DNA from: Pseudomonas sp. UMAB-08 | GTDB taxonomy: Bacteria; Pseudomonadota; Gammaproteobacteria; Pseudomonadales; Pseudomonadaceae | Direction: 5' to 3' | DNA: 64,000 nt | Assembly (NCBI RefSeq): GCF_900095225.1 | Contig: NZ_LT607416.1 | Coordinates: 110,976-174,975, forward strand | Shown here: one piece after another, positions 30,527 through 53,703 of the stretch | How the letters are laid out: each line of letters opens with the position of its first letter | How positions within the stretch are numbered: position 1 is the stretch's first letter | Made by a program: the position numbers and the translations under genes | The notes under the pieces: model-generated | Database searches by the model: none | What the model was told of the DNA's origin: nothing | Seen by the model: the letters and a program-made list of their open reading frames with translations, nothing else

Positions 30527-30529
30527 GAG

Positions 30530-32506: not shown

Positions 32507-32509
32507 ACC

Positions 32510-36991: not shown

Positions 36992-39900
36992 CTAGCGATA
37001 CACTTCGCGGCGAAAGATCATTGGTGATGAGCCTCGATAGATGCCGAATCTGGCCAGCCCCGTTGCAGCCTCACGCCCCTTGCCATTCCAGTCGTAGAAA
37101 AGCCAGGACGGTGTTGCCGGCAGTCCTCCGAGTACCGATCCGTTGATCCCGGGAGGCTGCAAGCGCAACAGCCCCAAACCCGCGATGGGTGCGATCAACG
37201 TGACCTTGTCATTGCCATAGTTCTGTTGGCTGAGTTGCCCGGTGTAACTGCTCAGTGCAGGCGTTTGTAAAACGGCTGCCGTGGTGCAGGTGTCCAGGCC
37301 TTCGACCCGAAAACTGCCGCCCGCAAGTTTCTGCCACGTCTCGATGCGCAAGGGCAGATCCAGTGCCTGTAGCTCAGAGCCATGGGCATTGTCCAGACGC
37401 AAGCGCCCCAGACGAACCTCGCTGCCAGGGCTGTCGCTAAAGTCATAGCTGTACGCTGAACAACTGTTGCCATCGCCAAAACAGGCACCATCGGTATCGG
37501 TCAATGTTGCAGCGCTGAAACCTTGACGAATCGCCGCGATAAACGGGTAATCATCAGCCAGTGGCAAGAGTGCCGGGGTGTACTGCAGCGTTTCACCGCT
37601 CCAGCGGTAGCGCTCGGTACCGTCACCATTGTCGGCACCGCTTTGTGCCAGGTTTGCTATGCCACTGCGGGTCAACCGCCCGCTGATATCCAGGCTGGTC
37701 TTGCCGGTGATCGAGGTGTAGGCATTCGGCACTGGCGTTGCCAACCGCCAGAACGCGCCACGGTCATAGTTATGGGTGATACTTGCGCTGCGATTAAAAC
37801 CAGTGACAGTCAGCGTAGGCTCCTGGCCGATGGCAAAGGCCATTGGCTGGCCTTGGTAACTGAAGGACGAACCGCAGCTCGACATCAGGCTGGCATTTGC
37901 TTGCACCCCTAAGTAAGCAGGAATGAAGCGGCCGACCAAACCACTCCCACCGCCGCTGACGGTTTCGCCGAAATAGCCATTGGCCGTTGGCGTGGCGGTC
38001 AGGCGGAATACACCGACCTCGGAAATCGAGGTGCTGGTGGTGGTCTGGTTACCCACTACATGGCTGTATCGGGGCGGGGAGAGCGTGCCGCTGTCTCCAG
38101 GGACGGGCGCCACCAGTGCGCTGTTCAGGGTGATATCGCTCATCTGAAAGTTGGGCGTGATGATATGGCTGCTGCACAAATTGCCTGCCGTAAGCGGTTC
38201 TCCGTCTGCCTGCCAGCCCACTGCCTGAATGCGCAGGGGAAAACTGTCGCCTGCTTTTTCGAAGACCTGACAGTTGTCGTTCACGCCTGCGACGGTGCAG
38301 GTCGACGCGGTCTGCAGGCACAGGCCATAGGGTTTGGACACGAACAAATCACTGCCGCTCATACTCAATCCCACATCGCCATTGGCGGTGGTGCCGTCGT
38401 AGCTGGCGGTGAGCATCATCTGTCCGGCATCGTCATAGCGTACCGTGAGCAGCGCGCTGCCCGTGCTGTCGAACGTCAGGTTGAGGCTGCTCGGGCTGCT
38501 GGTCACCGGGCTGTTATTGACCATCACTGGCTGGATGCCGGTGTCGGGATTGATGTAGGCCGAGGTAAAGCTCAGGCTGCGAGTGACGTTGGCAAACCCG
38601 GGGACACAGGCTTGCGAGGTGTCACTTTTTTTCACGGCGCGCAGGGCGATGTTGCTCTGCGGTCTGGCTGCAATCAGGGTCGGTACATCGAAGATGAAAC
38701 CGCTCTCGGCGTAGGCAATCGTACAGTCGCTGGTCGAGCAAACCGTCGATGAAGTGCTCCCCGGGACTGACGAGGCAACGGCAAGGCTCACGCTCCCCAC
38801 GCTACTGCTGCGCAACTGCGCTTGAGCACTGCCGCCACTGAAGGTAATGGTGTTGCCGTTGATCCCTGCGGGCGGGGTCGCTGTCCAGCCACTGGAAGGG
38901 CTCAGTACGACACTGACCGGATCGGCATAGAGACTGCAGCTGGCATTGCTGCAGGCGGTGATTGTGATCGGCTGCGGATTGCAGGTGAGTGCCGCGCCCG
39001 CATAGCTGAACGCGAAGTGGTCAATTTGAGCCGTCGGCGCTACCGCCTTGCAAGCATTATGCGGCGGGCTGGATGAACAGTCGCCGGTGATGGTTTTGGC
39101 TCCGCCCGTCACGATAACGCCACCGATGCAGCTGTCAGTGGCAGTGATGGCGCCGCCGGCCGTGGCATTGCCACCGACACTGGTCCCGGTGAGCGTCATC
39201 GCCCCAAAGGCCTGGGCATTGCCGCCGACGGTAGCGCGAGTGAGCGTGGTCGCGGCACCGGACACTGCATCGCCGCCGATGCACGTGTCGGTGGCGGTGA
39301 TGGCGGCGAATGCATTGACATCACCCGAGACACTGCCGCGTACGAGGGTGATAGCCGCACCGCTGCTGGTCAGGTTGCCCGTTACCGGGGTGTCAGTCGC
39401 CGTAATGACACCCCCGGCCAGGACATTACCGCCGACACTGCCGGTGGTGAGGGTAATCGCCCCTGAGTTGCTGGTCAGATTGCCGGTAATCGGCGCCCCC
39501 GTTGAGGTGATGGCGCCTTCGGCGTGAACCGCAGCACCGACGCTACCGCCGACGACAGTGATCGCGCCAGTGCTGGTGCTCAGGTTGGCTTTCACGGTTG
39601 TGTTGGTGGAGGTGATGGCCCCGTAAGCCTGGACATCGCCCCCCACGCTGGAGTCGGTCAGCGTCAGTGCGCCTGCCCGGCTGGTCAGGGTTCCGGTTAC
39701 GGCGGTGCCCAGCTTGAGGGTGACCGCCCCTTGAACCAGCAGGTTACCGCCGACCTTGCCCCCCGCGAGCGTGACGGCCCCGGCGCTGCTGGTGAGATTG
39801 CCGTTTACCAAGGTTCCGGTGGCGGTAATTGCTCCGCCGCCAAGGACGTCACCCGCGACGCTGCCACCGACCAGTGTCACGGCGCCGCTTGTTGTCTGGA

Positions 39901-40327
39901 CGGAGCCGGCTACCACGGCATTGGATAGGCTGATCGCGCCATCGGTGGAGCTTATCGAGGCACTGAACGTACTGTGGGTGCCCGTGACGGTGATAGCGCC
40001 TGGACCAGAGACCAGCGCCACGGTGTTGCTGCTGGTGCCGATCGAGTTGGTGTCGAGTGAGAAGCCTTGATTCGCGACAACGGTAATGTTGCCGATGGTC
40101 AGGAAACCCACCGCCAGTTTGTCCCCCGCCCCCAGTATCATCTGTCCACTGCAGGTGAAGGTATTACCGCTGCGGCTCCACGTGCCCGAACATGGGGCAT
40201 CTATACCCAGCAAAGTACCCAGCAAACTGAACGTATAGGTCGTTGCAGCCTGCGCCACGTTCGTTAGCAACAGCCCCGCCAGAAGCGCAATCCCAAGACC
40301 GCCCCGTGCCCATGTTTGTCTGCTCAT
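36992..40327 (-). CDS. mshQ: MSHA biogenesis protein MshQ with beta-solenoid repeat region
   Basis: 1111-residue exported protein, last gene of the MSHA locus and probably an accessory surface or tip component. Signal peptide to about residue 27 (NVAQA-ATT). Residues 108-417 form 18 repeats of 16-20 residues, alternating GAITxTxxxVxGNLTSxS and GAITLxxGSVGGNVxAG units. From about 430 to the end it is a cysteine-containing beta-rich region resembling DUF6701 (common in MshQ), with AYLGVQANA, GFNRSASITHNYDRGAFWRL and a C-terminal WLFYDWNGKGREAATGLARFGIYRG. Start at 40327 overlaps the mshP stop (ATGA). Confidence 0.85.
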   Translation of the reverse strand: MSRQTWARGGLGIALLAGLLLTNVAQAATTYTFSLLGTLLGIDAPCSGTWSRSGNTFTCSGQMILGAGDKLAVGFLTIGNITVVANQGFSLDTNSIGTSSNTVALVSGPGAITVTGTHSTFSASISSTDGAISLSNAVVAGSVQTTSGAVTLVGGSVAGDVLGGGAITATGTLVNGNLTSSAGAVTLAGGKVGGNLLVQGAVTLKLGTAVTGTLTSRAGALTLTDSSVGGDVQAYGAITSTNTTVKANLSTSTGAITVVGGSVGAAVHAEGAITSTGAPITGNLTSNSGAITLTTGSVGGNVLAGGVITATDTPVTGNLTSSGAAITLVRGSVSGDVNAFAAITATDTCIGGDAVSGAATTLTRATVGGNAQAFGAMTLTGTSVGGNATAGGAITATDSCIGGVIVTGGAKTITGDCSSSPPHNACKAVAPTAQIDHFAFSYAGAALTCNPQPITITACSNASCSLYADPVSVVLSPSSGWTATPPAGINGNTITFSGGSAQAQLRSSSVGSVSLAVASSVPGSTSSTVCSTSDCTIAYAESGFIFDVPTLIAARPQSNIALRAVKKSDTSQACVPGFANVTRSLSFTSAYINPDTGIQPVMVNNSPVTSSPSSLNLTFDSTGSALLTVRYDDAGQMMLTASYDGTTANGDVGLSMSGSDLFVSKPYGLCLQTASTCTVAGVNDNCQVFEKAGDSFPLRIQAVGWQADGEPLTAGNLCSSHIITPNFQMSDITLNSALVAPVPGDSGTLSPPRYSHVVGNQTTTSTSISEVGVFRLTATPTANGYFGETVSGGGSGLVGRFIPAYLGVQANASLMSSCGSSFSYQGQPMAFAIGQEPTLTVTGFNRSASITHNYDRGAFWRLATPVPNAYTSITGKTSLDISGRLTRSGIANLAQSGADNGDGTERYRWSGETLQYTPALLPLADDYPFIAAIRQGFSAATLTDTDGACFGDGNSCSAYSYDFSDSPGSEVRLGRLRLDNAHGSELQALDLPLRIETWQKLAGGSFRVEGLDTCTTAAVLQTPALSSYTGQLSQQNYGNDKVTLIAPIAGLGLLRLQPPGINGSVLGGLPATPSWLFYDWNGKGREAATGLARFGIYRGSSPMIFRREVYR
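39077..40006 (-). repeat. Coding tandem repeat inside mshQ (18 units of 16-20 residues)
   Basis: Each unit begins GA[IVL]T, continues with a hydrophilic turn and a VxGN/D step. Odd and even units differ, giving a roughly 35-residue (105-bp) higher-order repeat. The spacing of about 17-18 residues per turn and the repeated V-x-G-N-x-x-A-x-G pattern resemble bactofilin-like beta-helices. At DNA level the copies are diverged, so the repeat is old rather than freshly duplicated. Confidence 0.8.
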
Positions 40328-40752
40328 GGAGCCCCTTTCTCTATCGTTGAGGTGAGCTGTCGGTAGGCGTAGTCGGAGCGACTGCCTGGGGTGCCATTCT
40401 GTGCGGTGGAGGTGAACCGGAAGATGCTTACGGCAGCGCCGTCGTTGTCCACATAGTTGTTGCGGATGCACGCCACATTGAGGCTGAACTCGCCCAGATT
40501 GTTACCGGCCAGGCTCGGCGTTCCCTGAGCACAGTTGCCGCTGCTGATCGCTTGGGTTATGCCCCACTCGACCCCGGCCCGCGCCGCCTGATAGGCACGT
40601 GCCTGTTGTATGGACAGGCTGATGGTGCCGTGTTGCGCGACGGACAGGCGTGCCATGGCGATCACCACCAGGGCGACCACGATGAGCAGGAACATCGCTG
40701 CAACCAGGCCAAAACCCTGGGCGCGATGGGGCCAGCGGGGATCAGGGCGCAT
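40324..40752 (-). CDS. mshP: MSHA biogenesis protein MshP (pilin-like)
   Basis: 142-residue single-pass protein with a pilin/PilX-like N-terminus: basic segment, GFGLVAAMFLLIVVALVVIAMARL membrane helix (20-residue core), then a small periplasmic domain with two cysteines (SGNCAQG and NVACIRNN). As in other MshP/PilX proteins the consensus glutamate at position 5 is replaced. The ATG at 40752 overlaps mshO by 11 bp. Probable minor pilin of the pilus tip complex. Confidence 0.85.
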   Translation of the reverse strand: MRPDPRWPHRAQGFGLVAAMFLLIVVALVVIAMARLSVAQHGTISLSIQQARAYQAARAGVEWGITQAISSGNCAQGTPSLAGNNLGEFSLNVACIRNNYVDNDGAAVSIFRFTSTAQNGTPGSRSDYAYRQLTSTIEKGAP

Positions 40753-41659
40753 TGTCGATGTGGACCTGTTGCAAGAGTTGGAAGCTTTCGCCGTCGAGGG
40801 TGGTATGCAGTGCCAGGGACAGCAAACCGGCGCGCGCAGTGCTGCCGGCCTGGTAGGTAAAGCGTGTTTGCCCACAATCGACATTCAGTGCCAGCGGCTC
40901 AGGGTTGGAACCGGACGGCGGGGCGGCGGGCAGTGTAGAAAGCAGTTGGCTATAGGTGTAGCGAAGCAGTTGGCCATTCTGGCAGCGAAAGCCCACGACC
41001 GTCTGGGCCAGATACACACGCTGCTGTGGCGACGCATAGGCAAAGCGAAAACCGGTGGCGGGCAGGTTGCCCACCGCGATAATGCTTTCTCCAGCCGGTG
41101 CGCCTGGAAGCAGACTGAACGTGCTGCCTGTCGGGGTCATTACTCCTGGATTGGTCGGTGCCCAAAGGTTACTCCCGACCACCGGGTTGCCACCGGATTC
41201 GGCCCCGATGTTGTACACCACCATCCAGCGGGCCCCGGTCGGATCGAATGCCCCGTCCAGCACCTGCACGGTATCGCAACGACCGTCGATGGCAGTACTT
41301 GCGCACGTGCCAGCAGCCTCCGGGGAAAAACGCAGGCCTTGACTGTCATTGCGATTCGCACGGTAGCGCGCAGCGCCCTGGATCAGCAGTAGCTCCACGG
41401 CTTGGCCATCGGCTGACACCCTCAGCGAGTTGGGCACGGCCAGGCGTACATCGCGGGTCAAGCGGTTCATCGCGCCAGCCGCTTGATCCACCAGCTCGCC
41501 GCGTCGACTCTGGGCCAGGAAACCGTCCAGAGGACGCGACAGCACTGTGCTGATCATCACCACAATAATGCCGGCCAGGGCGATGACGAGCACCAGCTCG
41601 ACCAGGGTGAAGCCGCGCGCTTGCTGCGGGATGCCAACCGCCAATGCCGGGGTTTTCAT
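40742..41659 (-). CDS. mshO: MSHA biogenesis protein MshO (prepilin-like)
   Basis: 305 residues with a type IV prepilin leader: cleavage after the Gly of ARG-FTLVELVLVIALAG, Glu at +5, then a large beta-rich domain with several cysteines. By size and position a PilW-like minor pilin that primes pilus assembly. Its ATG overlaps the mshD stop by one base (TGATG). Confidence 0.88.
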   Translation of the reverse strand: MKTPALAVGIPQQARGFTLVELVLVIALAGIIVVMISTVLSRPLDGFLAQSRRGELVDQAAGAMNRLTRDVRLAVPNSLRVSADGQAVELLLIQGAARYRANRNDSQGLRFSPEAAGTCASTAIDGRCDTVQVLDGAFDPTGARWMVVYNIGAESGGNPVVGSNLWAPTNPGVMTPTGSTFSLLPGAPAGESIIAVGNLPATGFRFAYASPQQRVYLAQTVVGFRCQNGQLLRYTYSQLLSTLPAAPPSGSNPEPLALNVDCGQTRFTYQAGSTARAGLLSLALHTTLDGESFQLLQQVHIDNAP

Positions 41660-42114
41660 CAGTAGCGAGTCCGGTAGCCGGCCAGCACCAGCGGCTGGTT
41701 TGCGGGGTCGGTGACGGTGACTTCAACATAAAGCGCATCAGCTGCCGCCAGGCCCGCCCACGCGTGCGGGGTGACCGTGACGTTCACGCGATAAGCGGCG
41801 AGGGCGGCGATAGAGGTTCCGTCTGCTTCGCGGGCGCCGTTGTCGTTTAGCCCTGCGTAATCACAGACCGTCTGATATTGACTGCGGTTACCGGGCACCG
41901 CCGGGCAGACGACACCGTTCGCATCGACGTAGTCCTTCAGAAGGATTTCCTCAAGATAGGCTTCGGCGATGCCCAGGCTCTGTTGGCGCAGCAGTGGGTC
42001 GGCCGACCGTGTGGTGATGGCGGCCATGGCGCTGAACAGGGCTGCCGCCGCGATGCCGATAATCACGATGGTCATGACCAGTTCGATCAGGGTCATGCCC
42101 GTTTGGCGCTTCAT
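41659..42114 (-). CDS. mshD: MSHA pilin protein MshD (prepilin-like minor pilin)
   Basis: 151 residues with prepilin signal QTG-MTLIELVMTIVIIG (Glu+5), and a soluble domain containing a cysteine pair (GVVCPAVPG and TVCDYAG). PilV-like by position. Overlaps mshC by 4 bp. Confidence 0.88.
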   Translation of the reverse strand: MKRQTGMTLIELVMTIVIIGIAAAALFSAMAAITTRSADPLLRQQSLGIAEAYLEEILLKDYVDANGVVCPAVPGNRSQYQTVCDYAGLNDNGAREADGTSIAALAAYRVNVTVTPHAWAGLAAADALYVEVTVTDPANQPLVLAGYRTRY

Positions 42115-42563
42115 TGCAGCAGGCCTGTTTCGGGCGTCACGCTGAGCGTGAAGCCGCCGTTGAGCGTACCGACAGTGGCACTCGCCGCGCTGGACGGACG
42201 GCCCAGCGAATCGAATACCACGGGAAAATTGACCGCTGTCAGCGTCACATGAGTGGGCGCTGGCGCGGCAAAGGGTGTTTCGCCATCCGGGCCCCTGACC
42301 TCGGCGCTATAAGCGCCGCTGGTGCAGTTGGCCGCCTGGCGCAGGTGGTAGCCGTTATTGTCGAGGCTGACTTGAGTCAGGCAGCCGCTGGCCAGGGCAA
42401 GCTTCTGCCCATAGCGCACGGCCGCCTGGCTTTCTTCGAAAAACAGGCGCTCATCGAACACCTGTCGATCAAAGAACCGCGGCCCCACAACGGCCGAGAT
42501 AATCCCGATGATAACGATCACCAGAATCAGCTCGATCAGCGTGAAGCCGCGGTTGTCAGGCAT
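42111..42563 (-). CDS. mshC: MSHA pilin protein MshC (prepilin-like minor pilin)
   Basis: 150 residues, prepilin signal NRG-FTLIELILVIVIIG, GspH/FimT-like by position, with cysteines in ASGCLTQ and QAANCTSG. One-base contact with mshA and 4-bp overlap with mshD. Confidence 0.88.
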   Translation of the reverse strand: MPDNRGFTLIELILVIVIIGIISAVVGPRFFDRQVFDERLFFEESQAAVRYGQKLALASGCLTQVSLDNNGYHLRQAANCTSGAYSAEVRGPDGETPFAAPAPTHVTLTAVNFPVVFDSLGRPSSAASATVGTLNGGFTLSVTPETGLLQ

Positions 42564-43000
42564 TAGCAGCCGCCAACTTTTACTTCAAAGGTCGGAGCTG
42601 TTAAAACCGCTGGAGTCCCTGTTGACGTTGCTTCTGTGTAGACCACGCTGCAAGTAGCAGGCGTCGGTGCGCCGCTCGATCCCACTGTTCCGGCCGTTGT
42701 CGTGACGAAATCCTTGGAGGAGATTTGCGCCGCATCCAGCATGCCCGCCAAGTCTGGGTAGCCTTCCGCCATGGTGATAGTCGTACCTTCAAGGACTACG
42801 GGCGCACCCGAGACAAGAAATTGCGAATGGGCAATCGCAGAGGCTGAACGCATGGCTCCGGCCGCACCATTGATGGCTGCGACCCTGGCATCGACACTGA
42901 AGTTGGCAAAGCGAGGGAGCGCGAACGCCGCCAGAATGCCAAGAATAACGATCACCATGATCAACTCGATCAGGGTGAAACCACTTTGTTGTTTTTTCAT
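42563..43000 (-). CDS. mshA: MSHA major pilin MshA
   Basis: 145 residues, prepilin signal QSG-FTLIELIMVIVILG, then AAFALPRFANFSVDARVAA and GAMRSASAIAHSQFL, the arrangement of MshA pilins. Two cysteines near the C-terminus (PATCSVV and the final VGGC) should form the D-region disulphide. Called the major subunit from position between mshB and mshC and from its resemblance to Vibrio/Shewanella MshA. Confidence 0.85.
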   Translation of the reverse strand: MKKQQSGFTLIELIMVIVILGILAAFALPRFANFSVDARVAAINGAAGAMRSASAIAHSQFLVSGAPVVLEGTTITMAEGYPDLAGMLDAAQISSKDFVTTTAGTVGSSGAPTPATCSVVYTEATSTGTPAVLTAPTFEVKVGGC

Positions 43001-43028
43001 TATTTAATTCCTTTAGGTAAAGCGTGAG

Positions 43029-43559
43029 TCAGTTGATGGTGCTGGATACGTCGCCGGTATTGGCGTCGTATGAAATGGTGTCGTTTGCGCTATTCGGCTG
43101 ATAGGTAAAGGTGCAGACGTTGCCGGCGGCGGTGGTCACATAGTCGACAGTGCCTGCGCTCGTTCCCACCGTGGGTGCCGACCCTTGCAGGACGTTGCGA
43201 AAGACCTCATTGCACGCCGTTGCGGTCATTGCGGTGGCAGCGGTGCCCGTCGCATTGATACCCACCGGCCAGCCATTGGTGTTCACGTCGACGTTGTTAG
43301 TGCCAAAGCCCTGCACGTCGATCTGACAGTTGACCGGCGTGCCGCAGCCATTAGTGCCACCGTTACGGTTCACTTCGTACTGGGAGCGCACGAGCAACAC
43401 GGCAGAAGCCAGCGCGCCGCCGGCGCCCTTGACCGCAGCGTGCTGGGCATCCTGGGTGACGTTGATAAAACGTGGCAGCGCGACGGCGGCGAGGATGCCG
43501 AGTATCGCGATCACCACCACCAGTTCGATCAGGGTGAAGCCTTTGCTTTTTTTCATCAT
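43029..43559 (-). CDS. mshB: MSHA pilin protein MshB
   Basis: 176 residues with prepilin signal SKG-FTLIELVVVIAILG and AAVALPRFINVTQDAQ; three or more cysteines in an Asn/Thr/Gly-rich soluble domain. Start at the first of two adjacent ATGs (43559), with AAGGG about 5 nt upstream. Positioned as mshB between mshF and mshA. Because MshA and MshB are paralogues, which of the two is the bulk subunit should not be taken as proven. Confidence 0.83.
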   Translation of the reverse strand: MMKKSKGFTLIELVVVIAILGILAAVALPRFINVTQDAQHAAVKGAGGALASAVLLVRSQYEVNRNGGTNGCGTPVNCQIDVQGFGTNNVDVNTNGWPVGINATGTAATAMTATACNEVFRNVLQGSAPTVGTSAGTVDYVTTAAGNVCTFTYQPNSANDTISYDANTGDVSSTIN

Positions 43560-43566
43560 GAGCCCT

Positions 43567-44064
43567 TCACCGATTTAACCAATCCGCTGCGGAAAGCTCC
43601 GCAGCGGGTACCGCTTCCAGCTCCAGAGCAAAAGTGGCGCCTGACCCCGCTAACAGTCGGTAGGCATGGAGTTCACCCGGCGACGTTTTCCATCCCTCAA
43701 CAAACCGTACCCGGTACACAATCCAGGCCCGGGCTGGCAACCAGTACCAATAACCCGGTTTTGGCTCTGCGCCAGCCAGCAGTGCGCCGCCGTAGTTGTC
43801 CTGCTGCCAGCGCAGCAGGGCAAATGGGTTGGCGTTCCGCCATTCAGGTTCCAGCACCTTGCCGTTGGCCAACCGCTGCGCCGCCAGACCGCTCAGGCTG
43901 GAGGCCAGGTATTCACGGGTGGCCTCCATCGCCCGACGTTCACTGACCTGAGCGATTTTCCAGCCCATTGCCAGGAGCACCGGGAGCAACATCAGTCCAG
44001 TGATGCCCCAGCCCAGCCGACGCATCCGGCGAACGCTACGGCCCATTCCATCGTTCCGATTCAC
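43567..44064 (-). CDS. mshF: MSHA biogenesis protein MshF
   Basis: 165-residue single-pass protein: basic N-terminus, membrane helix at about 18-36 (GITGLMLLPVLLAMGW), then a periplasmic domain with WYWLPARAWIVYRVRF. No prepilin motif. Proposed start is the GTG at 44064, sharing GTGA with the mshG stop and preceded by AAGGG; an ATG at 44046 is an alternative. Assigned from its slot between mshG and mshB; sequence alone gives little. Confidence 0.7.
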   Translation of the reverse strand: MNRNDGMGRSVRRMRRLGWGITGLMLLPVLLAMGWKIAQVSERRAMEATREYLASSLSGLAAQRLANGKVLEPEWRNANPFALLRWQQDNYGGALLAGAEPKPGYWYWLPARAWIVYRVRFVEGWKTSPGELHAYRLLAGSGATFALELEAVPAAELSAADWLNR

Positions 44065-45293: not shown

Positions 45294-45358
45294 GGCGCCA
45301 CACTCCGTTCGACGGGCGTGGGCATCAAGGACGCCGGGCTGTACAAGCGTGTACGCAT
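45290..45358 (-). CDS. Possible 22-codon mini-gene bridging mshE and mshG
   Basis: An ATG overlaps the mshE stop (TGATG) and opens a frame of 22 codons whose TGA overlaps the mshG ATG (ATGA). It covers the only gap in the central mshL-mshF part of the operon. The peptide is basic at first (MRTRLYSP) and has no membrane helix. It could be a translational coupler rather than a functional peptide, or chance. Confidence 0.3.
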   Translation of the reverse strand: MRTRLYSPASLMPTPVERSVAP

Positions 45359-47085
45359 CAGATCAGCACCTCGTCGGTCCGGGAAACGCACACTTTGAGC
45401 ACTTCCTCGACGCTGGTCAGTCCGGCCAGCGCATAGTCCAGCGCGCAGGCGGCGAGGGGCCGATAGTGGGGGCTGCTCAGGGCTGCGTCGGCGAAGCCCT
45501 GGGGGTCGTTGCGACGCAGCATGGCGATCATGGTCTCGTTCATTTCCAGCAGTTCGAAGACCCCCATCCGCCCGGAGTAACCCGTGTTGTGGCAGTGGTT
45601 GCAGCCGGACCCACGCTGGAAGTTGCGCCCGCTCAGTGAGGCGCCATACAGGGCCTCCAGCCACACCATCTGGCGCACCTCGGGCACGTGGGTCTCCCGA
45701 CAGTTTTCGCACACGCGACGGATCAGCCGCTGGGCCAGTACGGCGCTCAACGCGGTGGCGACCAGAAATGGCTCGACGCCCATGTCAACCAAACGCATGG
45801 CTGACGTCGGGGCATCGTTGGTGTGCAACGTCGAGAGCACCAAGTGGCCGGTCATCGCGGCACGCAGCCCGATCTCGGCGGTTTCCTGGTCGCGCATCTC
45901 GCCAATCAGGAGGATATCCGGGTCCTGACGCAGGGCGGCGCGCAGCACGCGGGTGAAGCTGAGGTCGATCTTTGCGTTGACTTGGACCTGGTTGATCCGT
46001 GGCAGCCGGTACTCCACCGGGTCTTCCACGGTGATGATTTTCTTCTGCGGGCTGTTCAATTCGCTGAGCCCGGCATACAGCGTGGTGGTTTTGCCCGAGC
46101 CGGTAGGACCGGTGACCAGAATCAGGCCGAAGGGGCGCTGCAGCAGTTGGCGAAACCGCACCAGCATCTGCGCCGGCATGCCGCCAGCGTCGAGGCTGGT
46201 AATGCCGTGAGTCTGGTCAAGCAGACGCATCACCACCGACTCGCCGAACTGCACGGGCATGGTCGACACGCGTACATCGAGGGTGTGGTTCTTGACCCGG
46301 ATATTGAAGCGCCCGTCCTGGGGCAGGCGCTTTTCGGAGATATCCAGACCGGACATGATTTTCAAGCGCATGACCAGGGCCGAGGCCACCCGCGCCTCTT
46401 TCATGACATGCTCGTTGAGCACCCCGTCGATACGCTGACGAATGCGCAAGATGCCATCGCCGGGCTCGATATGAATATCCGACGCCTGCATCTGCACCGC
46501 GTCTTCAAACAGCGTTTGTAGGAGGCGCACCACCGGCGCTTCGCTGTTGTTGTCGGCACCCAGGACAGACAGGTCGAAGTCACTGTCCTTGAGTTCACCT
46601 TCCAGCTCGCCGGCAATCGAGTTGATCTCGCTGGTGCGCCGATACAGCATGTCGAGGGCGGTCAGCAGCTCAGACTCGCGGACCACGGCAGGCTGTACGG
46701 TGGTCTTCAGCAGGCGGTCCAGTTCGTCGAGGGCGAACAGGTCGAGCGGGTCGCTCATGCCCACCAGCAGGCCATCGCCCTCACGCGAAAGAACGATGAC
46801 GCGGAAGCGTCGTGCCACGGCTTCCGGCAGGGCCTGGACCAGGTTTTTGTCGAACTTGAAATGCTTGAGTTCGATGAAGGAGATGTTCAACTGCTCGGAC
46901 AGTGCCGTCAGCAGGCGCACTTCATCGATGAAACCGAGGTCGACTACGGTACGACCCAGCTTGAAACCGGTGCGTTTTTGTTCCAGCAAGGCGCGCTGCA
47001 ATTGAGCATCGCTGATCAGGCCGGCCTCGATCAACAGGTCACCCAGGCGCACCTTGCGCTGACGTATATCTTCTTTATTCATCAT
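45358..47085 (-). CDS. mshE: MSHA assembly ATPase MshE (PilB/GspE family), c-di-GMP-binding type
   Basis: 575-residue hexameric cytoplasmic ATPase that powers pilus extension. N-terminal MshEN domain with two tandem motifs: RLGDLLIEAG (13-22) ... Q36, and LGRTVVDLG (43-51), the pattern shown in Vibrio MshE to bind c-di-GMP. Walker A GPTGSGKTTT, Asp box and Walker B DPDILLIGEMRDQETA are intact, followed by HLVLSTLHTNDA and a zinc-type tetracysteine (CENC...CNHC). No PilT-type retraction gene accompanies it. Confidence 0.93.
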   Translation of the reverse strand: MMNKEDIRQRKVRLGDLLIEAGLISDAQLQRALLEQKRTGFKLGRTVVDLGFIDEVRLLTALSEQLNISFIELKHFKFDKNLVQALPEAVARRFRVIVLSREGDGLLVGMSDPLDLFALDELDRLLKTTVQPAVVRESELLTALDMLYRRTSEINSIAGELEGELKDSDFDLSVLGADNNSEAPVVRLLQTLFEDAVQMQASDIHIEPGDGILRIRQRIDGVLNEHVMKEARVASALVMRLKIMSGLDISEKRLPQDGRFNIRVKNHTLDVRVSTMPVQFGESVVMRLLDQTHGITSLDAGGMPAQMLVRFRQLLQRPFGLILVTGPTGSGKTTTLYAGLSELNSPQKKIITVEDPVEYRLPRINQVQVNAKIDLSFTRVLRAALRQDPDILLIGEMRDQETAEIGLRAAMTGHLVLSTLHTNDAPTSAMRLVDMGVEPFLVATALSAVLAQRLIRRVCENCRETHVPEVRQMVWLEALYGASLSGRNFQRGSGCNHCHNTGYSGRMGVFELLEMNETMIAMLRRNDPQGFADAALSSPHYRPLAACALDYALAGLTSVEEVLKVCVSRTDEVLI

Positions 47086-47088
47086 GGT

Positions 47089-48525
47089 TCACCGAGCTCC
47101 CAGTGCTGTCGCGCGTTCACTGGCGAAGCGTCGTGCGCTGTCATCCAGCGCTTGCCCTTGCTGGGCCAGACGATAATGGCGAGCCGCCGCAGCCGATTGG
47201 TCCAGGCGCTCCAGAGCGATTGCCAGGCCTAACTGCCAAGTCGCCTGGTCAGGCCGTAGTGTGATCATCTGCTGATACAACGAAGCGCTCTTTTGCCACT
47301 GCGCGGTCTGCTGGTAGCTGGCCGCGAGCAACGCGTGATACGTGAGTTCCTGCGCCAATGGCGGAGGGTTCTGCTCCAGCGTTGCGACCGCGCCGCGTGC
47401 ATTGCCGGATTGCAGTTGCGACCGTGCCAATAGCAGGCGCAACTCGCTGTCGTTCGGCCACTGTTTCAGCTGCAGCGGTAACCACGTCAGCAGCAATGAT
47501 GATTGGCCGTTGGCCAGGTAAGCGCGGGCCAGACCGTGCACGACATCCAGATCGTTCCCACGTGACAGTTGCAGGGACTGAAGCTCACGGACAGCCCGTG
47601 GATAGTCACCGCTCCGCAGGGTTTGCAACGCTTGAGCCAGAGCGTCCGGCTGGTAAGGCACGATCTTCATCTGTGGCGGACCGCTGGCAGAGAGCGGCTT
47701 TACCACCGGGATGACGGCAGGTCGGGGTCTCGCCTCCGCAGACGGTACCCGCGCATTGGCCCATGCCGGCAGCGGTGACTCTGCGGTCTCTGAATCGACC
47801 GTTGTCGCGTCAGTGGCCGGACTGTTTTCCATATCGCCCACCCTGTCCGAGGCGTCGGTCTGCGATGCCTTTGCCGACATAGGCACTTCGACCCACAACA
47901 GCCAATGATCGCCGGCGGGCTCAAGTCGATCGCGCACGTGCAGGTTGTCACCCAGACCGACCAGCAACACCTGCACGCCCTGACCCTGACCCTGTACTCG
48001 CCAAGACAGGCTGCGTCCGTCGCGCTGCACCCGGCCTTGGGGCATGTCGGCTGCAAGCTGTGTGCTCAATTGCGCCCCAGGGAGGCTGAGGGTTACGGAA
48101 CCGCTTTGATCAATGCGTTGATACGCCACTGACTTGTCCAGCAGCAGTTGCAGGACCAGGCTGCGGCCATCGTTCTGAGGGAGCACTTCCAGAATGTGGG
48201 TCGAAGCGACGGGTGCAGGACCTGGAGTCACAACGGGCGCTACCGGTGCCGGCACTGGGACAGGGGCCGCAGGCGCGATGGGCATTGCCGTTACGCTGTG
48301 CGGCAGTGCGGGTGATTCAAGCAGGCGGTCTATCAGCACACCCAATGGCAGTCCGATCAGGATGATCAGCGCCAGTCCAGTCAAGGCCGTGCGGACGCGT
48401 TGAAAGCGCTTGCGACGGGCAGCCCCGGCCTCATCCACCGCCCACAGGCCGTCCAGCCTGAGTCGTTCGGTTGGCGCAGCGCGGCGCCTCTCAAGGTTGC
48501 GCAGCATGTCGTTGACCAGGCTCAT
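47089..48525 (-). CDS. mshN: MSHA biogenesis protein MshN (TPR protein)
   Basis: 478-residue single-pass protein: short cytoplasmic part, membrane helix at about 48-68 (ALTGLALIILIGLPLGVLI), a Pro/Ala/Val-rich linker, an AMIN-like beta region (about 105-205) and C-terminal TPR repeats (about 290-470). Likely a periplasmic scaffold linking inner-membrane and secretin parts. Overlaps mshM by 4 bp; mshE follows 3 bp later. Confidence 0.87.
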   Translation of the reverse strand: MSLVNDMLRNLERRRAAPTERLRLDGLWAVDEAGAARRKRFQRVRTALTGLALIILIGLPLGVLIDRLLESPALPHSVTAMPIAPAAPVPVPAPVAPVVTPGPAPVASTHILEVLPQNDGRSLVLQLLLDKSVAYQRIDQSGSVTLSLPGAQLSTQLAADMPQGRVQRDGRSLSWRVQGQGQGVQVLLVGLGDNLHVRDRLEPAGDHWLLWVEVPMSAKASQTDASDRVGDMENSPATDATTVDSETAESPLPAWANARVPSAEARPRPAVIPVVKPLSASGPPQMKIVPYQPDALAQALQTLRSGDYPRAVRELQSLQLSRGNDLDVVHGLARAYLANGQSSLLLTWLPLQLKQWPNDSELRLLLARSQLQSGNARGAVATLEQNPPPLAQELTYHALLAASYQQTAQWQKSASLYQQMITLRPDQATWQLGLAIALERLDQSAAAARHYRLAQQGQALDDSARRFASERATALGAR

Positions 48526-49436
48526 ACCAGCATCTCCCCGTACTGAATCAGCCCGAAGCCGACAGCAGCGGCCAACAACAGCGAGAGCATTACAATCCTC
48601 CGGCGCGACGAGTACGGGGCCGGCAGGACGCTGTCGGTATCTTGCATGGCACGGTGCACATGCCTTTGCGTGACCTGTTTGCGCCCCTCGCCATAGGCCG
48701 CCATCAGCGCCTTGTTCGCCAGGATATTGAGCAGTCGCGGGATGCCACCGCTGTCGTGCACCAAGCGGCGCACTGCGGCCCTGGAAAATAGAGGCTCGCC
48801 CCGGTAGCCAGCCACGGCCAGGCGCTCAGTCAAATACCGGGTCGTGTCTTTCAGGTCTAGAAGGCGCAGACGATAAGAAAACGTGATGCGTTGGCGCAGT
48901 TGGCGCAGATCGTTGCGCGCCAGGGTGACATCCAGTTCCGGTTGGCCGAACAGGACCACTTGCAGGAGTTTGGCTTGCTCGGTTTCCAGATTGGTCAGCA
49001 GTCGGAGCGCTTCCAGGGTCCCGATTGGCAGCCCTTGAGCTTCGTCGATCAATAGCACCGTGCTTTTACCGGCCGCCGCCAGCTCGATCAAACGCCGCTG
49101 CAAAAGCTCCAGCACACCTTGGGTATCAAGCTCTTCAATGCCGCTGATGTGCAGCTCGCGGGCCACCGCTTGGCGCAGGCCGCTCGGGCTCATGCCTGGG
49201 TTGGGCAGGTAGGCCAACTGATAGCGTTCGCTGTCCAGTTGCTTGAGGAGGGCGCGGCAGATCAGCGTCTTGCCGGTGCCTACCTCGCCAGTGACTTTGA
49301 TAAAGCCTTCACCCTCGCCAAGCGCCACGTGCAGCATATTAAGGCAGGCCTGATAAGGCGCCAGCTGGACCAGAAACTCGGTATTGGGGGTCAGGGCGAA
49401 CGGTTTCTCGCGCAGACCAAAGTAGGCTTCGTACAT
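48522..49436 (-). CDS. mshM: MSHA biogenesis ATPase MshM (ExeA-like)
   Basis: 304-residue AAA-type ATPase. Walker A VTGEVGTGKTLICRALL, Walker B TVLLIDEAQGLP, sensor region VVLFGQPELD, then IPRLLNILANKALMAAY typical of the ExeA/GspA group, and a C-terminal membrane helix (VMLSLLLAAAVGFGLIQ). Probably helps place the secretin through the peptidoglycan. 4-bp overlap with mshN. Confidence 0.9.
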   Translation of the reverse strand: MYEAYFGLREKPFALTPNTEFLVQLAPYQACLNMLHVALGEGEGFIKVTGEVGTGKTLICRALLKQLDSERYQLAYLPNPGMSPSGLRQAVARELHISGIEELDTQGVLELLQRRLIELAAAGKSTVLLIDEAQGLPIGTLEALRLLTNLETEQAKLLQVVLFGQPELDVTLARNDLRQLRQRITFSYRLRLLDLKDTTRYLTERLAVAGYRGEPLFSRAAVRRLVHDSGGIPRLLNILANKALMAAYGEGRKQVTQRHVHRAMQDTDSVLPAPYSSRRRIVMLSLLLAAAVGFGLIQYGEMLV

Positions 49437-49440
49437 GGCC

Positions 49441-51099
49441 TTACTTGAGTTCCTTGAAGGTCTCTGCGGTTTTACGCAGTTCGCCCAGCCAGACTTCGTC
49501 GTTCACCACCTGCGGCCGCATGAGAATCACCAGCTCGCTTTTGTTCAGTGATTTGCGCTGCTGCTTGAACAGGTTGCCGATGATCGGCAGTTTGCTGGCC
49601 CATGGAATATTGGCATCGGTGTCGTTGCTGTTGTTTTGAAGCAAGCCACCGATCACCACCACCCGGCCACTGCGGGCGCGCACGATGGAGTCGGACTGAC
49701 GGGTTTCAGACAGGGCCAGCGGCAGGTTCAACACCGTGTTCGTGCCCAGAGTGATGATCTTGTTCTGATCGGTAACGCGGCTAACCGTGGGACGTACATG
49801 CAGGGTCACGGTGTCGTTCTGATCGATCTGCGGTGTGACGTCCAGCGAGATACCGGAAAAGAACGGGGTCAGGGTCACGTTCTGGGTCGGCTGGGTGACC
49901 CCGGCGACCGTCGTGGTGCCTGATTGTGATGACACGTCGGTGACAAAAAACTCGTCGGTGCCGACCTTGATCACGGCCTTCTGGTTATTCAGTGTGGAAA
50001 TTCGCGGGCTTGAAAGTACGCGCACCTCGCCTTGGGTTTCCAGCAACTGGATCAACCCGTTGAAATTACCCGCACTGATCGTACTGCTGAATACGCCGCC
50101 AATACCGGTGGGGCCGGTCAGCGCTGCGCCCGCCAGACTCGTGCCTATATCGCCACCCAGCTGGTCCCAGCTAATCCCGGCCTGAAAGCCTTTGGACAGG
50201 GTCACTTCGAGAATCTTGGTTTCCAGAATCACTTGGCGCTGGAGGTTACGTTGTGCCTTTTCCAGAAAACGCGCGACGTTTTCCTGGTCGGCACTTTTGG
50301 CGCGGACCACCAGCAGGCTGGCCTGTGGGTTAACCACAACACTGTTACCTGGCTCGTCACCCACCATCACTTTCACGACATCGCCGACTTCCTTCCAGAA
50401 GTCGGCGTCACTGACGGTGGTCACCTGGCTGGCATTGAGGGTGGACGCCTGCCCATTGCTGCCATTGCTGCCGCCATTACTCCCGTTGCCATTGCCGCCG
50501 TAGCTACCGTTTCCACCACTGTTGTTGCCGTTACTGCCGTTATTCCCCTGGTTATTATTGTTACTGGTCATCTGGCCTGCGCTGACGCGGGTGTCGGACT
50601 TACCGAAGCGCTGCAAATTCAGATAATTGAGGTCATAACTGCGAGTGATCACACTGTTCGGCAGGATTTGATAGCCGTAGCTGGTGCGGCGAAAATCATA
50701 GCCATAGGTGTCTCGTACTGCGCTAAGCACTTCTTCGAGCGTGACCCGGTGCAGGCTGAAGGTGATATTGCCGGTGACGTCCGGATGCACCACCAGGTTC
50801 TGCCCGGCACCTTGCATCAGGCTCAGGAAGAAGTCGCGAGCGGGCATGTCCTTGGCCGATACGTCGAAACGCGGATCGTTCGAAGAGGGGCCTTGCGGGG
50901 AGTAAGCGGGTATCAGTGCGGCTTGCACCGATGGGGGAGGCGCGACCTGCTTTTGTGCTTGTTGCAGGCTTTCGTTGAGCAGCCGGTTGCTCTGGTCATA
51001 GAGCACCTGGTCGCCACTGTTGAACGTCTGGCAGGCGTTTAACAGGCACACCAGACCAAGGAGGCCTGGGCCCGACAAGAACTTCATCATGGGCATCAT
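49441..51099 (-). CDS. mshL: MSHA secretin MshL
   Basis: 552-residue outer-membrane secretin forming the pilus exit pore. Lipoprotein signal with LLNAC (Cys23), STN-like domain (about 84-150), an Asn/Gly/Ser low-complexity insert at 179-217, N-domain with VKVMVGDEPGNSVVVNPQ, and the secretin core (about 290-535) with VLSSPRISTLNNQKAVIKVG and VVVIGGLLQN. Overlaps mshK by 4 bp; mshM follows 4 bp after its stop. Confidence 0.93.
   Translation of the reverse strand: MMPMMKFLSGPGLLGLVCLLNACQTFNSGDQVLYDQSNRLLNESLQQAQKQVAPPPSVQAALIPAYSPQGPSSNDPRFDVSAKDMPARDFFLSLMQGAGQNLVVHPDVTGNITFSLHRVTLEEVLSAVRDTYGYDFRRTSYGYQILPNSVITRSYDLNYLNLQRFGKSDTRVSAGQMTSNNNNQGNNGSNGNNSGGNGSYGGNGNGSNGGSNGSNGQASTLNASQVTTVSDADFWKEVGDVVKVMVGDEPGNSVVVNPQASLLVVRAKSADQENVARFLEKAQRNLQRQVILETKILEVTLSKGFQAGISWDQLGGDIGTSLAGAALTGPTGIGGVFSSTISAGNFNGLIQLLETQGEVRVLSSPRISTLNNQKAVIKVGTDEFFVTDVSSQSGTTTVAGVTQPTQNVTLTPFFSGISLDVTPQIDQNDTVTLHVRPTVSRVTDQNKIITLGTNTVLNLPLALSETRQSDSIVRARSGRVVVIGGLLQNNSNDTDANIPWASKLPIIGNLFKQQRKSLNKSELVILMRPQVVNDEVWLGELRKTAETFKELK
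50449..50565 (-). repeat. Asn/Gly/Ser low-complexity tract in mshL
   Basis: About 39 residues composed almost wholly of Asn, Gly and Ser (for example NNNNQGNNGSNGNNSGGNG), encoded by short irregular AAT/AAC/GGC/AGC repeats. It forms a flexible linker between the STN-like and N domains and is a likely site of length variation. Confidence 0.85.
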
Positions 51100-51434
51100 C
51101 GGCTCGGTTGTATAACGGATTTAGCCAGGCGAAGAAGTTCGCGCTTGCCCTTGCGTTCAATCAAAACAGTCTGGGGATAGATAGCCAGTACGCGGCCATC
51201 GGCATATTCGTCACCGACGCGTAGTGTTTGGCCATTGATGACCGCGCGGCTGCCTTGGGCGCCCAGCAGGATGGCCTGCAGCACTGGAGTTTGAGTCTTT
51301 TCATCCGTACGGGCTGGCGCGAGGCTGGCCGGTGGCTGAGTCGGATCGAGGGGGATTTCGATGCTGGCCTGGGCCATCGCGCCATACAGCAGCACACTCG
51401 CTAGAAGAAATCTAAACACCGATCCACCCCGCAT
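51096..51434 (-). CDS. mshK: MSHA biogenesis protein MshK
   Basis: 112-residue exported protein: signal peptide (cleavage near AQA-SIEIPLDPTQPP), then VLQAILLGAQGSRAVINGQTL and GKRELLRL, resembling the PilP/GspC periplasmic fold that contacts the secretin. Overlaps mshJ by 23 bp and mshL by 4 bp. Confidence 0.83.
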   Translation of the reverse strand: MRGGSVFRFLLASVLLYGAMAQASIEIPLDPTQPPASLAPARTDEKTQTPVLQAILLGAQGSRAVINGQTLRVGDEYADGRVLAIYPQTVLIERKGKRELLRLAKSVIQPSR

Positions 51435-52089
51435 AACGGCTCAAGGTATACAGCTGCAGGCTGATCTGTGCGTGCGCTGCCCCGGCCTCGCCGACCCGAT
51501 AGTCGAGGCTGTCCCAGTTCAGTTTCCACTGGGTGCCCTGGATCGCTTGCAGGTAGCGCAACAGGTCGAAGTACCCTCCCTGTAACTTCAGGTTCACCCC
51601 ATGCCGATACAGGACAACGGCGCTGGCCTGACCCTTGGCCTTCGTTGTCGGGGCTGGGTCGGTCGAGGGGACTTCGACGGGTGTACTGAAACTCTCCAGG
51701 CTCAGCAGTTGCAGACCCGGCTGGGCTTTCAACAGGTCTTCAAGTACCGCGCGCATTTTGCCCGGGGTGATCAGCTCGCCCGTGTTGTGGTCGATCTGCT
51801 CCAGCAACTGCGCGCTGTCCGTCGAAGCCAGGAGCAGGGCGCGGTTGTAGGGGATATTGGGGTCGGCTTCAAGGGCCGCACGCAGCTTGGCCAGAGCGGT
51901 CGCGGCTTCAACCCGATGCGCTTCGGCAGTCTGATAGTCAGCCGTCTGCTTGACCAGGCGGGCGCCCAGCGGGTTACCGAGCAGCACCAGATACAGGGTG
52001 CCGCACAGCGCCAGACCGACCCCGCAGGCCAGCCATTGCTCTCGCGGGGCCAGGGTCTGCCAGCGCTGCAACCATTTGCTCGTGTTCAT
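51412..52089 (-). CDS. mshJ: MSHA biogenesis protein MshJ (PilO-like)
   Basis: 225 residues: one membrane helix (about 19-37), a coiled-coil stretch (about 45-75) and a ferredoxin-like periplasmic domain with VNLKLQGGYFDLLRYLQAIQ, as in PilO/GspM. Part of the inner-membrane alignment complex with MshI and MshI2. 4-bp overlap with mshI2. Confidence 0.86.
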   Translation of the reverse strand: MNTSKWLQRWQTLAPREQWLACGVGLALCGTLYLVLLGNPLGARLVKQTADYQTAEAHRVEAATALAKLRAALEADPNIPYNRALLLASTDSAQLLEQIDHNTGELITPGKMRAVLEDLLKAQPGLQLLSLESFSTPVEVPSTDPAPTTKAKGQASAVVLYRHGVNLKLQGGYFDLLRYLQAIQGTQWKLNWDSLDYRVGEAGAAHAQISLQLYTLSRYAGWIGV

Positions 52090-52691
52090 GGGCTGTCCTT
52101 TGGATCGGTAGCCCGTGAGGACAGGTCGAAATGCAGCAGTTGATCGTCGCCACGTTGCACATCGAAGCGTGCAAATTCACGCCCCTTGAATACCGCGCTC
52201 TGGCCCAGGCGCTCCAGGTACTGCGGCAGCATTTGTTGGTGCTGGCTGAAACCCTGCAGGCGCATTTGGGTGCCGCCTTCGCGCAAGGAAATAGCGTTTA
52301 GCCACAGGCCACTGGGTGGGTGCTGTGCCGCCAGAGCCGCTAACGGCGCAACAAAGCCGATGCGCTGCTGGCGCGCCACGACGTCCAGATAGCTGACCAG
52401 GCGCTGCAGTGCGCGGTTTTGCGCATCTATATCGGCCAGACGCAATGGCAGTTGGGGATCGAGTGTCGGTTGGACGAAAGAGGCTTTGGCGTCTTCCAGC
52501 TGGCGTAGCTGCTGTTGTTCCAGGGTTTGGGCCTGAGTCAGACGTTCAGCGCCTGCATACAGGTGCCATCCCTGCCAAACGCCATGACACAGACAGAGCA
52601 GCACCAGCACGGCAAGGCCAGCCAGTAGCTGGGGTTTTTGCGGTCCGTGGCGTGCGTTTTTTTCTACCTGATAAAGGTTGAGGTTCTGCAT
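52086..52691 (-). CDS. mshI2: MSHA biogenesis protein (PilN-like)
   Basis: 201 residues with the PilN-type start MQNLNLYQVE, a membrane helix at about 22-42 and a periplasmic domain containing NAISLREGGTQMRLQG. The conserved N-terminal NLY segment should bind the PilM-like MshI. One-base contact with mshI (stop and start share a base). Confidence 0.85.
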   Translation of the reverse strand: MQNLNLYQVEKNARHGPQKPQLLAGLAVLVLLCLCHGVWQGWHLYAGAERLTQAQTLEQQQLRQLEDAKASFVQPTLDPQLPLRLADIDAQNRALQRLVSYLDVVARQQRIGFVAPLAALAAQHPPSGLWLNAISLREGGTQMRLQGFSQHQQMLPQYLERLGQSAVFKGREFARFDVQRGDDQLLHFDLSSRATDPKDSP

Positions 52692-53605
52692 CAGGAAACC
52701 GTCTGGCGCAGAGCTGCACCGACGGCTGCCATGCAGTGAGCCTGCATCTGTTCGTCCAGTTCAGCCGCGGGTTGCCCGCTGAACAATTCGCGCAGGTCGA
52801 GGGCCTGCAGTTTGACGGTCAGTCCATTACCCAGCGCTTGCAGTGCGGCTTCGCCATCGCGCTTCATGGGCAGTAACAGCAGGCGATTAATGTGCCCCTT
52901 GCCTAACTGGCTTTCGAAATAGTCAAGGGAACGCTGGATCTCCAGGGTGGCGGAAGAAAAATCCTGGCCAGCCTGTTCCAGTCCATGCTCAATGACGCGC
53001 GCCATATACAGATCCGCGCCATGCTGCACGCAGATCAAGCCCTCGCTGGAACGCAAGCGCAGCAGTGCGATGTTCAGATTGTCGGCACCGGCCAACAGGC
53101 CAAGATTGCGAAATGCCATTTCGGTAACGTCGATGCTGACCAGATTGAGACCGGCCTGCTTGATCAGCTTGGCCCACTCCTGCATGCGCGCTTTATTGAG
53201 TACGGCGCAGTAGGCCATGCGCGAGCGGCCACGGTAGGCATCTTCGGGCAGGGCAAACGCGTCAACGACGACGTCTTCAAGGGGTTCACTGATAAGGTCT
53301 TTGATGCGCCAGCGCATGGCGGCGCCCAAGTCTTCAGCGGGGACATCGGGGCTGTCGAGAAGCAGCATCTGGTAGGCAGCAGGGTGCAGCACAAGGTTGA
53401 CCGGCAAGCCGCCAAGCCCTGATTCGTCGACCATATTTTTCAATACGGCGGGTTGCTGTTCTGGCGCGGCTACGCGGAAGCTACAGTTGAGCAGGCGTGG
53501 AGCTTCGCCTTGGCTTCTCTGTATATGGGCTAGAGCTATTCCATTTGGACCTGTCTCTACACCCACCAAACCGCGCGCTGTGGTTTTACTTCTTGGAAAC
53601 CACAT
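52691..53605 (-). CDS. mshI: MSHA biogenesis protein MshI (PilM-like)
   Basis: 304-residue cytoplasmic actin-like protein of the PilM/GspL-N family. It opens GLVGVETGPNGIALAHI (phosphate-1-like), with AMRWRIKDLISEPLEDVVVDAF and VSIDVTEMAFRNLGLL in the middle. First gene of the locus; mshH (csrD-like), which precedes mshI in Vibrio, is absent. Weak GAAG ribosome-binding site. Promoter candidate at 53676-53703. Confidence 0.86.
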   Translation of the reverse strand: MWFPRSKTTARGLVGVETGPNGIALAHIQRSQGEAPRLLNCSFRVAAPEQQPAVLKNMVDESGLGGLPVNLVLHPAAYQMLLLDSPDVPAEDLGAAMRWRIKDLISEPLEDVVVDAFALPEDAYRGRSRMAYCAVLNKARMQEWAKLIKQAGLNLVSIDVTEMAFRNLGLLAGADNLNIALLRLRSSEGLICVQHGADLYMARVIEHGLEQAGQDFSSATLEIQRSLDYFESQLGKGHINRLLLLPMKRDGEAALQALGNGLTVKLQALDLRELFSGQPAAELDEQMQAHCMAAVGAALRQTVS

Positions 53606-53675: not shown

Positions 53676-53703
53676 ATGTTATGTACAGGGAGCATGATGT
53701 CAA
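53676..53703 (-). promoter_or_regulatory. Sigma-70-type promoter of the msh operon
   Basis: On the minus strand, a perfect TTGACA (53698-53703) is followed after 16 bp by TAACAT (53676-53681). It would start transcription about 65 bp before mshI. The -35 box lies inside the palindrome at 53693-53715. Confidence 0.55.

Follow-up and report, generated by a model that had tools for sequence, protein, structure and literature searches.

The mannose-sensitive hemagglutinin (MSHA) pilus of Vibrio, Shewanella, and Aeromonas is encoded at a single locus that has an extension ATPase of the MshEN type, ends with mshQ, and contains neither a prepilin peptidase gene nor a retraction ATPase gene. According to the model description in PMC6668835, published MSH loci lack a prepilin peptidase and are found in genomes with another, peptidase-bearing system. 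By the accounts given for Vibrio cholerae, MSHA is retracted by PilT and draws on a shared PilD (PMC7096442). PilT has a further part in initiating MSHA assembly according to PMC9815625, a 2022 study that lists MshM, MshQ, and MshF as having no known function. Here, we describe a locus with the same gene set and order in Pseudomonas sp. UMAB-08. It occupies positions 36992 to 53605, on the minus strand, of a 64,000-nucleotide (nt) stretch of contig NZ_LT607416.1 (the window). It differs from the loci of those three genera in having no adjacent mshH, in lying beside cyoABCDE in a Pseudomonas, and in the predicted beta-helix at the N terminus of its MshQ; in addition, mshF and mshB are optional among its relatives. 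We put at roughly 0.7 the probability that the window holds a 17-gene MSHA locus whose product is a thin, retractable, surface-gripping filament with a beta-helical MshQ, probably at the tip. Among the papers listed in our open-access literature searches on MSHA pili with Pseudomonas, Stutzerimonas, or minor-pilin recombination, none was about a Pseudomonas MSHA pilus, judged by titles and abstract openings, and the available portions of a P. fragi paper (PMC13188923) bring up MSHA only for Aeromonas and in general.

Results

The minus-strand block contains 17 open reading frames (ORFs) in the order mshI-I2-J-K-L-M-N-E-G-F-B-A-C-D-O-P-Q (Table 1), as a preliminary description of this DNA had claimed. 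We take this to be the order of the Vibrio and Shewanella loci, which is partly given in papers. The same description held that nearly all junctions overlap, which is worded a little strongly: with the starts of the longest ORFs, 11 of the 16 junctions overlap, and the remaining five are gaps of 3 to 64 nt. The long mshO/mshP and mshP/mshQ overlaps are more likely a product of start choice, and starts at about 40752 (mshP) and at 40330 (mshQ) would leave overlaps of about 11 and 7 nt. The mshG/mshF overlap may be absent if an internal ATG is used. The site upstream of mshI is the best promoter-like site of the region, where three such sites were found and 4.3 are expected by chance.

We compared the proteins with family models. 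The secretin MshL scored best with the MshL model TIGR02519, at 241.9 bits just under the cut-off of 250.2, and the next of the nine NCBIfam models listed was GspD at 153.6 bits. MshE shares 63.5% identity with the MshE of a Marinobacter and 36.5% with the PilB of its own genome. The N_methyl motif PF07963 was found on MshB, MshA, MshC, MshD, and MshO, and MshQ carries DUF6701, which we took as a criterion for an MSH pilus. No Pfam family matched MshI, MshK, MshF, or MshP, whose names rest on their place and on similarity to relatives. We also applied the MSH pilus model as described in PMC6668835, through Pfam and NCBIfam matches and gene place instead of the paper's own profiles. Its genes mshA, mshE, mshG, mshL, and mshM are present and lie at a single locus free of a peptidase gene; position in the locus identified mshA and mshM, together with the pilin motif for the former and the AAA domain for the latter. 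Gene content and family matches thus place the window locus firmly among MSHA-type type IV pilus loci, as first described. A type IVa (PilA to PilQ) pilus or type II secretion system in disguise was ruled out, because MshE is nearer to the Marinobacter MshE than to PilB and the MshL model outscores GspD.

Fifteen comparison loci, picked by hand from the genus and family samples described below, share the gene order of the window except that some are missing mshF and mshB. In these other Pseudomonadaceae, MshE is 73 to 89% and MshL 62 to 85% identical to the window proteins. We considered that the locus could be a relic or a specialized secretion route, exporting MshQ or another product through MshL, and not a working pilus. 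MshE and MshG do score well against GspE and GspF (NCBIfam), and close relatives have lost mshF and mshB by deletion. However, none of the 17 window ORFs is interrupted, a pilin gene is kept in 15 of 15 comparison loci, and MshL is nearer to its own model than to GspD. We regard a relic or secretion route as very improbable.

We searched 31 Pseudomonadaceae loci, the window included, for mshF by tblastn. It was matched in 15, where the gap between mshG and the first pilin gene is 505 to 560 nt, and unmatched in 16, where the gap is 15 to 350 nt. With roughly one locus in two lacking it, mshF is probably not essential. Among the five loci that we call fluorescens-type (window, G228, G270, G351, and G591), G351 has kept mshB and lost mshF, and G228, G270, and G591 have lost both genes, with a short 3' remnant of mshB left before mshA. 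Completeness, as noted in the preliminary description, is thus not the rule: the window alone of these five has both mshF and mshB.

The preliminary description reasoned that the pilus must share a PilT-type protein and the prepilin peptidase with other systems or be static. In the window's own assembly (5.57 Mb, 68 contigs), two loci, one on contig C9 and one on C1, score above the PilT/PilU cut-off; they encode PilT and a second PilT/PilU-family ATPase. The sole prepilin peptidase of the genome (PilD, A24_N match) lies away from the msh contig, on contig C6 beside pilA, pilB, and pilC, which were named by eye from sequence. This pilA-pilBCD cluster is the other peptidase-bearing system that the model description in PMC6668835 calls for. 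Sharing PilT and a peptidase is a known MSHA arrangement, and the shared parts are present in the genome, so we rejected a static pilus or one with missing parts. By analogy with V. cholerae, PilT would retract the pilus in this organism.

MshE carries a pair of c-di-GMP (cyclic di-GMP) motifs, RLGDLLIEAGLISDAQLQRALLEQ and KLGRTVVDLGFIDEVRLLTALSEQ, at residues 13 to 36 and 42 to 65. Compared with the residues named in the motif description of PMC5013675, all are kept except one: motif II begins with a lysine in place of the arginine. The pair is present in 16 of 16 MshE proteins (window and comparison loci), always with K for the R that opens motif II. Of 86 loci with an mshE match, 40 fit a strict form of the motif pattern, all 40 with R and then K as the opening residues, and 46 did not fit it. 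Because the motif residues are kept apart from one R-to-K change, the window MshE is likely to bind c-di-GMP, and the pilus would come under c-di-GMP control.

We next compared pairwise protein identities over 29 loci: the window, the 15 comparison loci, and 13 named loci (23 named Pseudomonadaceae loci, from Pseudomonas and Stutzerimonas records, minus five duplicates and five incomplete ones). We defined machine block 1 as I, I2, J, and L, machine block 2 as M, N, E, and G, and the tip block as C, D, O, and P. Machine block 1 predicts machine block 2 closely (r = 0.938, residual standard deviation 2.0) but predicts the tip block far less well (r = 0.669, residual standard deviation 6.8, extremes +31.2 and −23.2) and MshA poorly (r = 0.293). 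Identities correlate at 0.57 to 0.91 among the machine genes and at 0.70 to 0.88 among MshC, MshD, MshO, and MshP, while MshB and MshA correlate at 0.10 to 0.51 with anything else. In the 16 loci with a full MshQ, its last 580 amino acids correlate at 0.69 to 0.72 with MshC, MshO, and MshP, at 0.48 with MshD, and at 0.12 to 0.45 with machine genes. The locus evolves as three blocks: the machine from mshI to mshG, the pilins mshB and mshA, and a cassette, mshC-D-O-P-Q.

Pairs of relatives suggest that this cassette moves as a unit. G592 and G693, from two genera, share 85% identity in the tip block, 63 and 74% in the machine blocks, and 52% in MshA; gene by gene, mshC to mshQ are 81 to 88% identical versus 38 to 86% for machine genes, of which MshE (86%) and MshG (81%) are in general the slowest. 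Their DNA gave one match of 6,479 bp (80.7%) that begins at the mshC start and continues for 128 nt beyond mshQ. In contrast, G592 and its relative G601 share 94% of MshE and 90% of MshG but only 51 to 55% of MshC to MshP and 41% of MshQ. Stutzerimonas kunmingensis and S. chloritidismutans are 90 and 98% identical in the machine blocks but 55% in the tip block. Their DNA is 90.9 to 98.5% identical until about 175 bp into mshA, past which only 273 and 188 bp match (78 and 71%) up to mshP, where the comparison stops with mshQ cut off. Finally, G601 and S. chloritidismutans share 84% of the tip block versus 73 and 82% of the machine blocks, and their DNA is 85.5% identical over the part of the cassette covered and 76.8% from mshI to mshE. 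From these patterns, the cassette, sometimes with the variable part of the pilin, appears to have been exchanged as a unit in relatives. The window cassette agrees with the window machine genes against near relatives, and so we claim no recent exchange for it. Among the papers listed in open-access searches on MshQ, MSHA minor pilins, DUF6701, and the filament superfamily, none dealt with tip exchange.

Several observations weigh against exchange and would fit an ordinary MSHA locus with fast-evolving tip genes, in which the apparent cassette reflects rate variation and MshQ is a fast-changing surface protein. MshA, MshB, and the MshQ N terminus are among the most variable parts, tip genes still correlate at 0.30 to 0.68 with machine genes, and the cassette DNA identity of G592 and G693 is close to that of mshE (78.8%) and mshG (79.7%). 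However, fast evolution cannot raise tip identity above machine identity, as in G592-G693 and G601-S. chloritidismutans, and it offers no explanation for the break inside mshA. The close agreement of the two machine blocks beside tip residuals of this size also weighs against it. We therefore think it improbable that rate variation accounts for the cassette.

From the start at 40330, MshQ has 1,112 amino acids with a signal-peptide-like N terminus, followed by the predicted beta-helix, whose repeat has a period of 35 residues that we read as two coils. The fold matched autotransporter beta-helix proteins (pertactin, 1dab; UpaB, 6bea) and the Sf6 tailspike (4urr), a likeness of fold that gives no ligand; we found no sequence relation of MshQ to these three. 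A sequence comparison with solved structures gave one match (E = 0.38), and matches to a viral fold library had low TM (template modeling) scores; we used neither. Bactofilin, our first idea for the repeat and still a candidate, was not among the fold matches listed. A scan (E ≤ 0.01) with a local Pfam copy found only DUF6701 in MshQ and no PilC/PilY1-type domain. Three newer families, PF28243, PF28247, and PF28238, of which that copy lacks at least two, are precomputed beside DUF6701 on nearly all MshQ relatives, including one that is 97% identical.

MshQ is a mosaic protein. The N-terminal modules of relatives are beta-helix, LamG, GGWLG, and DUF7305 types, in combinations, and 10 of the 11 full MshQ proteins outside the window's group carry a LamG_3 module, a GGWLG module, or both, while the window's group has neither. 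The GGWLG module is roughly 250 residues long and shows GGWLG(I/V)ALDEFGN or a close variant of this motif; we saw it in L152:2319-6563 (residues 383 to 632) and in six other MshQ proteins. It looked lectin-like to us, but it matched no Pfam or NCBIfam family where scanned, and one example matched no PDB sequence, so we left it unnamed.

In ordinary type IV pili, minor pilins carry PilY1. The MSHA cassette resembles that type IVa tip complex in that minor pilins and one large non-pilin protein are inherited together; it differs in that MshQ matches DUF6701 and, by Pfam, has no PilY1-type domain. Loss of PilY1-type tip proteins also lowers piliation. In V. cholerae, loss of MshQ, termed a putative adhesin, lowers surface MSHA by the account in PMC7096442. 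This would be expected as well if MshQ were an assembly factor in the outer membrane or at the base. However, MshQ covaries with MshC, MshO, and MshP, and its differing LamG, GGWLG, and beta-helix N-terminal parts are what is expected of a binding end. An assembly role is rather unlikely in our judgment. Because the tip cassette covaries, MshQ is mosaic, and its loss lowers surface MSHA, the most likely role of MshQ is that of an adhesin which the minor pilins carry at the tip.

We surveyed genomes for MshL relatives at E ≤ 1e-80, counting the window's own genome in both samples. Of 398 genomes sampled in the genus, 24 have the locus; of 398 sampled in the family, 66 do. Eight of the 15 comparison loci (G014, G028, G114, G130, G168, G186, G496, and G693) adjoin secB and/or trmL, with ntrC on the other side in five. 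As G496 belongs to another genus, secB/trmL may be the old site. The trmL-ntrC spacing is about 0.7 to 1.1 kb in G005, G010, and G015, which lack msh genes, and in G200 and G228, which have them elsewhere. In G130, the locus lies between secB and trmL and not between trmL and ntrC, which would reflect two insertion events at almost the same spot or else a rearrangement nearby. A different site is common to the window, G270, and G591: their loci lie downstream of cyoABCDE plus three more genes, and the opposite flank differs. G228 and G351 occupy two additional sites. In the 14-kb stretch read, ntrC is not near trmL in the window genome, G270, G591, or G020, unlike in five others compared.

An rpoB tree joins the window with G270 and G591 (93.1% nt identity each), with the msh-less G020 next, and places the msh-less G005, G010, and G017 among G228 and G351. 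In contrast, machine-gene trees group G270 and G591 with G228 and G351, the four loci that lack mshF, to the exclusion of the window (support 98 and 96). Against that grouping, the tip-gene tree places the window with G270 and G591, with weak support (64). This conflict suggests either transfer of the locus among fluorescens-type species or repeated loss. The view that the MSHA genes were acquired is partly borne out by their patchiness in the genus and a seemingly derived site. Within the family, however, MSHA is common, and because of this the source likely lies within the Pseudomonadaceae. Plasmid carriage was rejected: megablast of 12,864 bases of the locus against a plasmid collection gave one record, covering 2% of the query, a Comamonas ATPase gene.

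Other features of the window were noted. In the cyo operon (29534 to 33124), CyoA, CyoB, and CyoC are 81 to 98% identical to those of G270 and G591 versus 65 to 82% to those of nine other relatives. CyoE is 86 to 94% identical to that of 22 of 24 relatives, and the cyo front may have been replaced in the window's group. Directly beside mshI, 53838 to 56252 encodes a large multiheme c-type cytochrome with HEAT and TPR repeats, for which the sequence retrieved around the 15 comparison loci contained no match. Past it lie a sulfatase-like gene (56624 to 58231) and then a FadL-like gene, both named by eye. The window also has another adhesion system, at 20115 to 24501, whose genes we identified by eye as those for the usher, the chaperone, and adhesin-like proteins of a chaperone-usher fimbria.

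Table 1. Features of the msh locus (window coordinates)
Feature	Coordinates	Strand	Evidence
mshI, PilM-like by position	52691..53605	-	56-81% amino acid identity to 15 relatives; no Pfam match
mshI2, PilN-like	52086..52691	-	PF05137 6.5e-08
mshJ, GspM/PilO-like	51412..52089	-	PF04612 1.1e-06
mshK, GspC/PilP-like	51096..51434	-	weak NF041515 1.3e-04, far below cut-off; place conserved in relatives
mshL, outer-membrane secretin	49441..51099	-	TIGR02519 MshL 6.7e-72, 241.9 bits (cut-off 250.2); PF00263
mshM, AAA ATPase	48522..49436	-	PF13401 1.2e-28
mshN, TPR protein	47089..48525	-	PF14559 3.7e-11
mshE, extension ATPase with MshEN domain	45358..47085	-	PF00437, PF05157; NF053729 over cut-off; 5htl MshE 5.2e-29
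mshG, inner-membrane platform, PilC/GspF-like	44061..45293	-	PF00482 3.7e-54
mshF, start uncertain, perhaps 44046	43567..44097	-	ORF; tblastn match in 14/30 other Pseudomonadaceae loci
mshB, type IV pilin	43029..43559	-	PF07963 1.4e-10
mshA, presumed major pilin, Cys117 and Cys145	42563..43000	-	PF07963 2.1e-09
mshC, minor pilin that opens the cassette apparently exchanged in relatives	42111..42563	-	PF07963 2.7e-08
mshD, minor pilin	41659..42114	-	PF07963 8.5e-07
mshO, minor pilin	40742..41659	-	PF07963 2.5e-05
mshP, PilX/GspK-like minor pilin by place	40324..40884, likely start ~40752	-	43-72% amino acid identity to 15 relatives; no family match
mshQ, putative tip adhesin	36992..40471, likely start 40330	-	PF20419 DUF6701 3.6e-133
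Predicted parallel beta-helix domain of MshQ, residues 28-432 of 1112	39035..40249	-	AlphaFold2 pLDDT 90, pTM 0.86
DUF6701 base of MshQ	37001..38746	-	Pfam, residues 576-1157 of the long ORF
Possible sigma-70-type promoter, TTGACA-16-TAACAT	53676..53703	-	~70 nt before mshI; weak

Discussion

We propose that the inner- and outer-membrane parts, MshI to MshG, would polymerize the pilin MshA after cleavage of the prepilins by PilD, encoded elsewhere. c-di-GMP bound by the MshEN domain would lead MshE to drive extension, and retraction would fall to PilT with the second PilT/PilU-family ATPase, also encoded elsewhere. MshC, MshD, MshO, and MshP would prime the filament and carry MshQ, by analogy with PilY1, and MshQ would probably be displayed at the tip.

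More broadly, we lean toward a platform on which tips can be swapped. According to this model, a conserved motor, gated by c-di-GMP and retracted by PilT, would bear an exchangeable mshC-D-O-P-Q cassette, and the N terminus of MshQ (beta-helix, LamG, GGWLG, or DUF7305) would set the surface that is gripped. The window's group would have specialized to a beta-helix tip, free of LamG and GGWLG modules, whose length varies by whole coils.

Two V. cholerae components of unknown function are thereby given testable places, MshQ as a tip adhesin and MshF as a component that is probably not essential. If the model is true, the natural set of MshQ ends would be material for ligand tests, and exchangeable tips on a conserved motor could account for the ability of environmental Pseudomonas to change from one surface to another.

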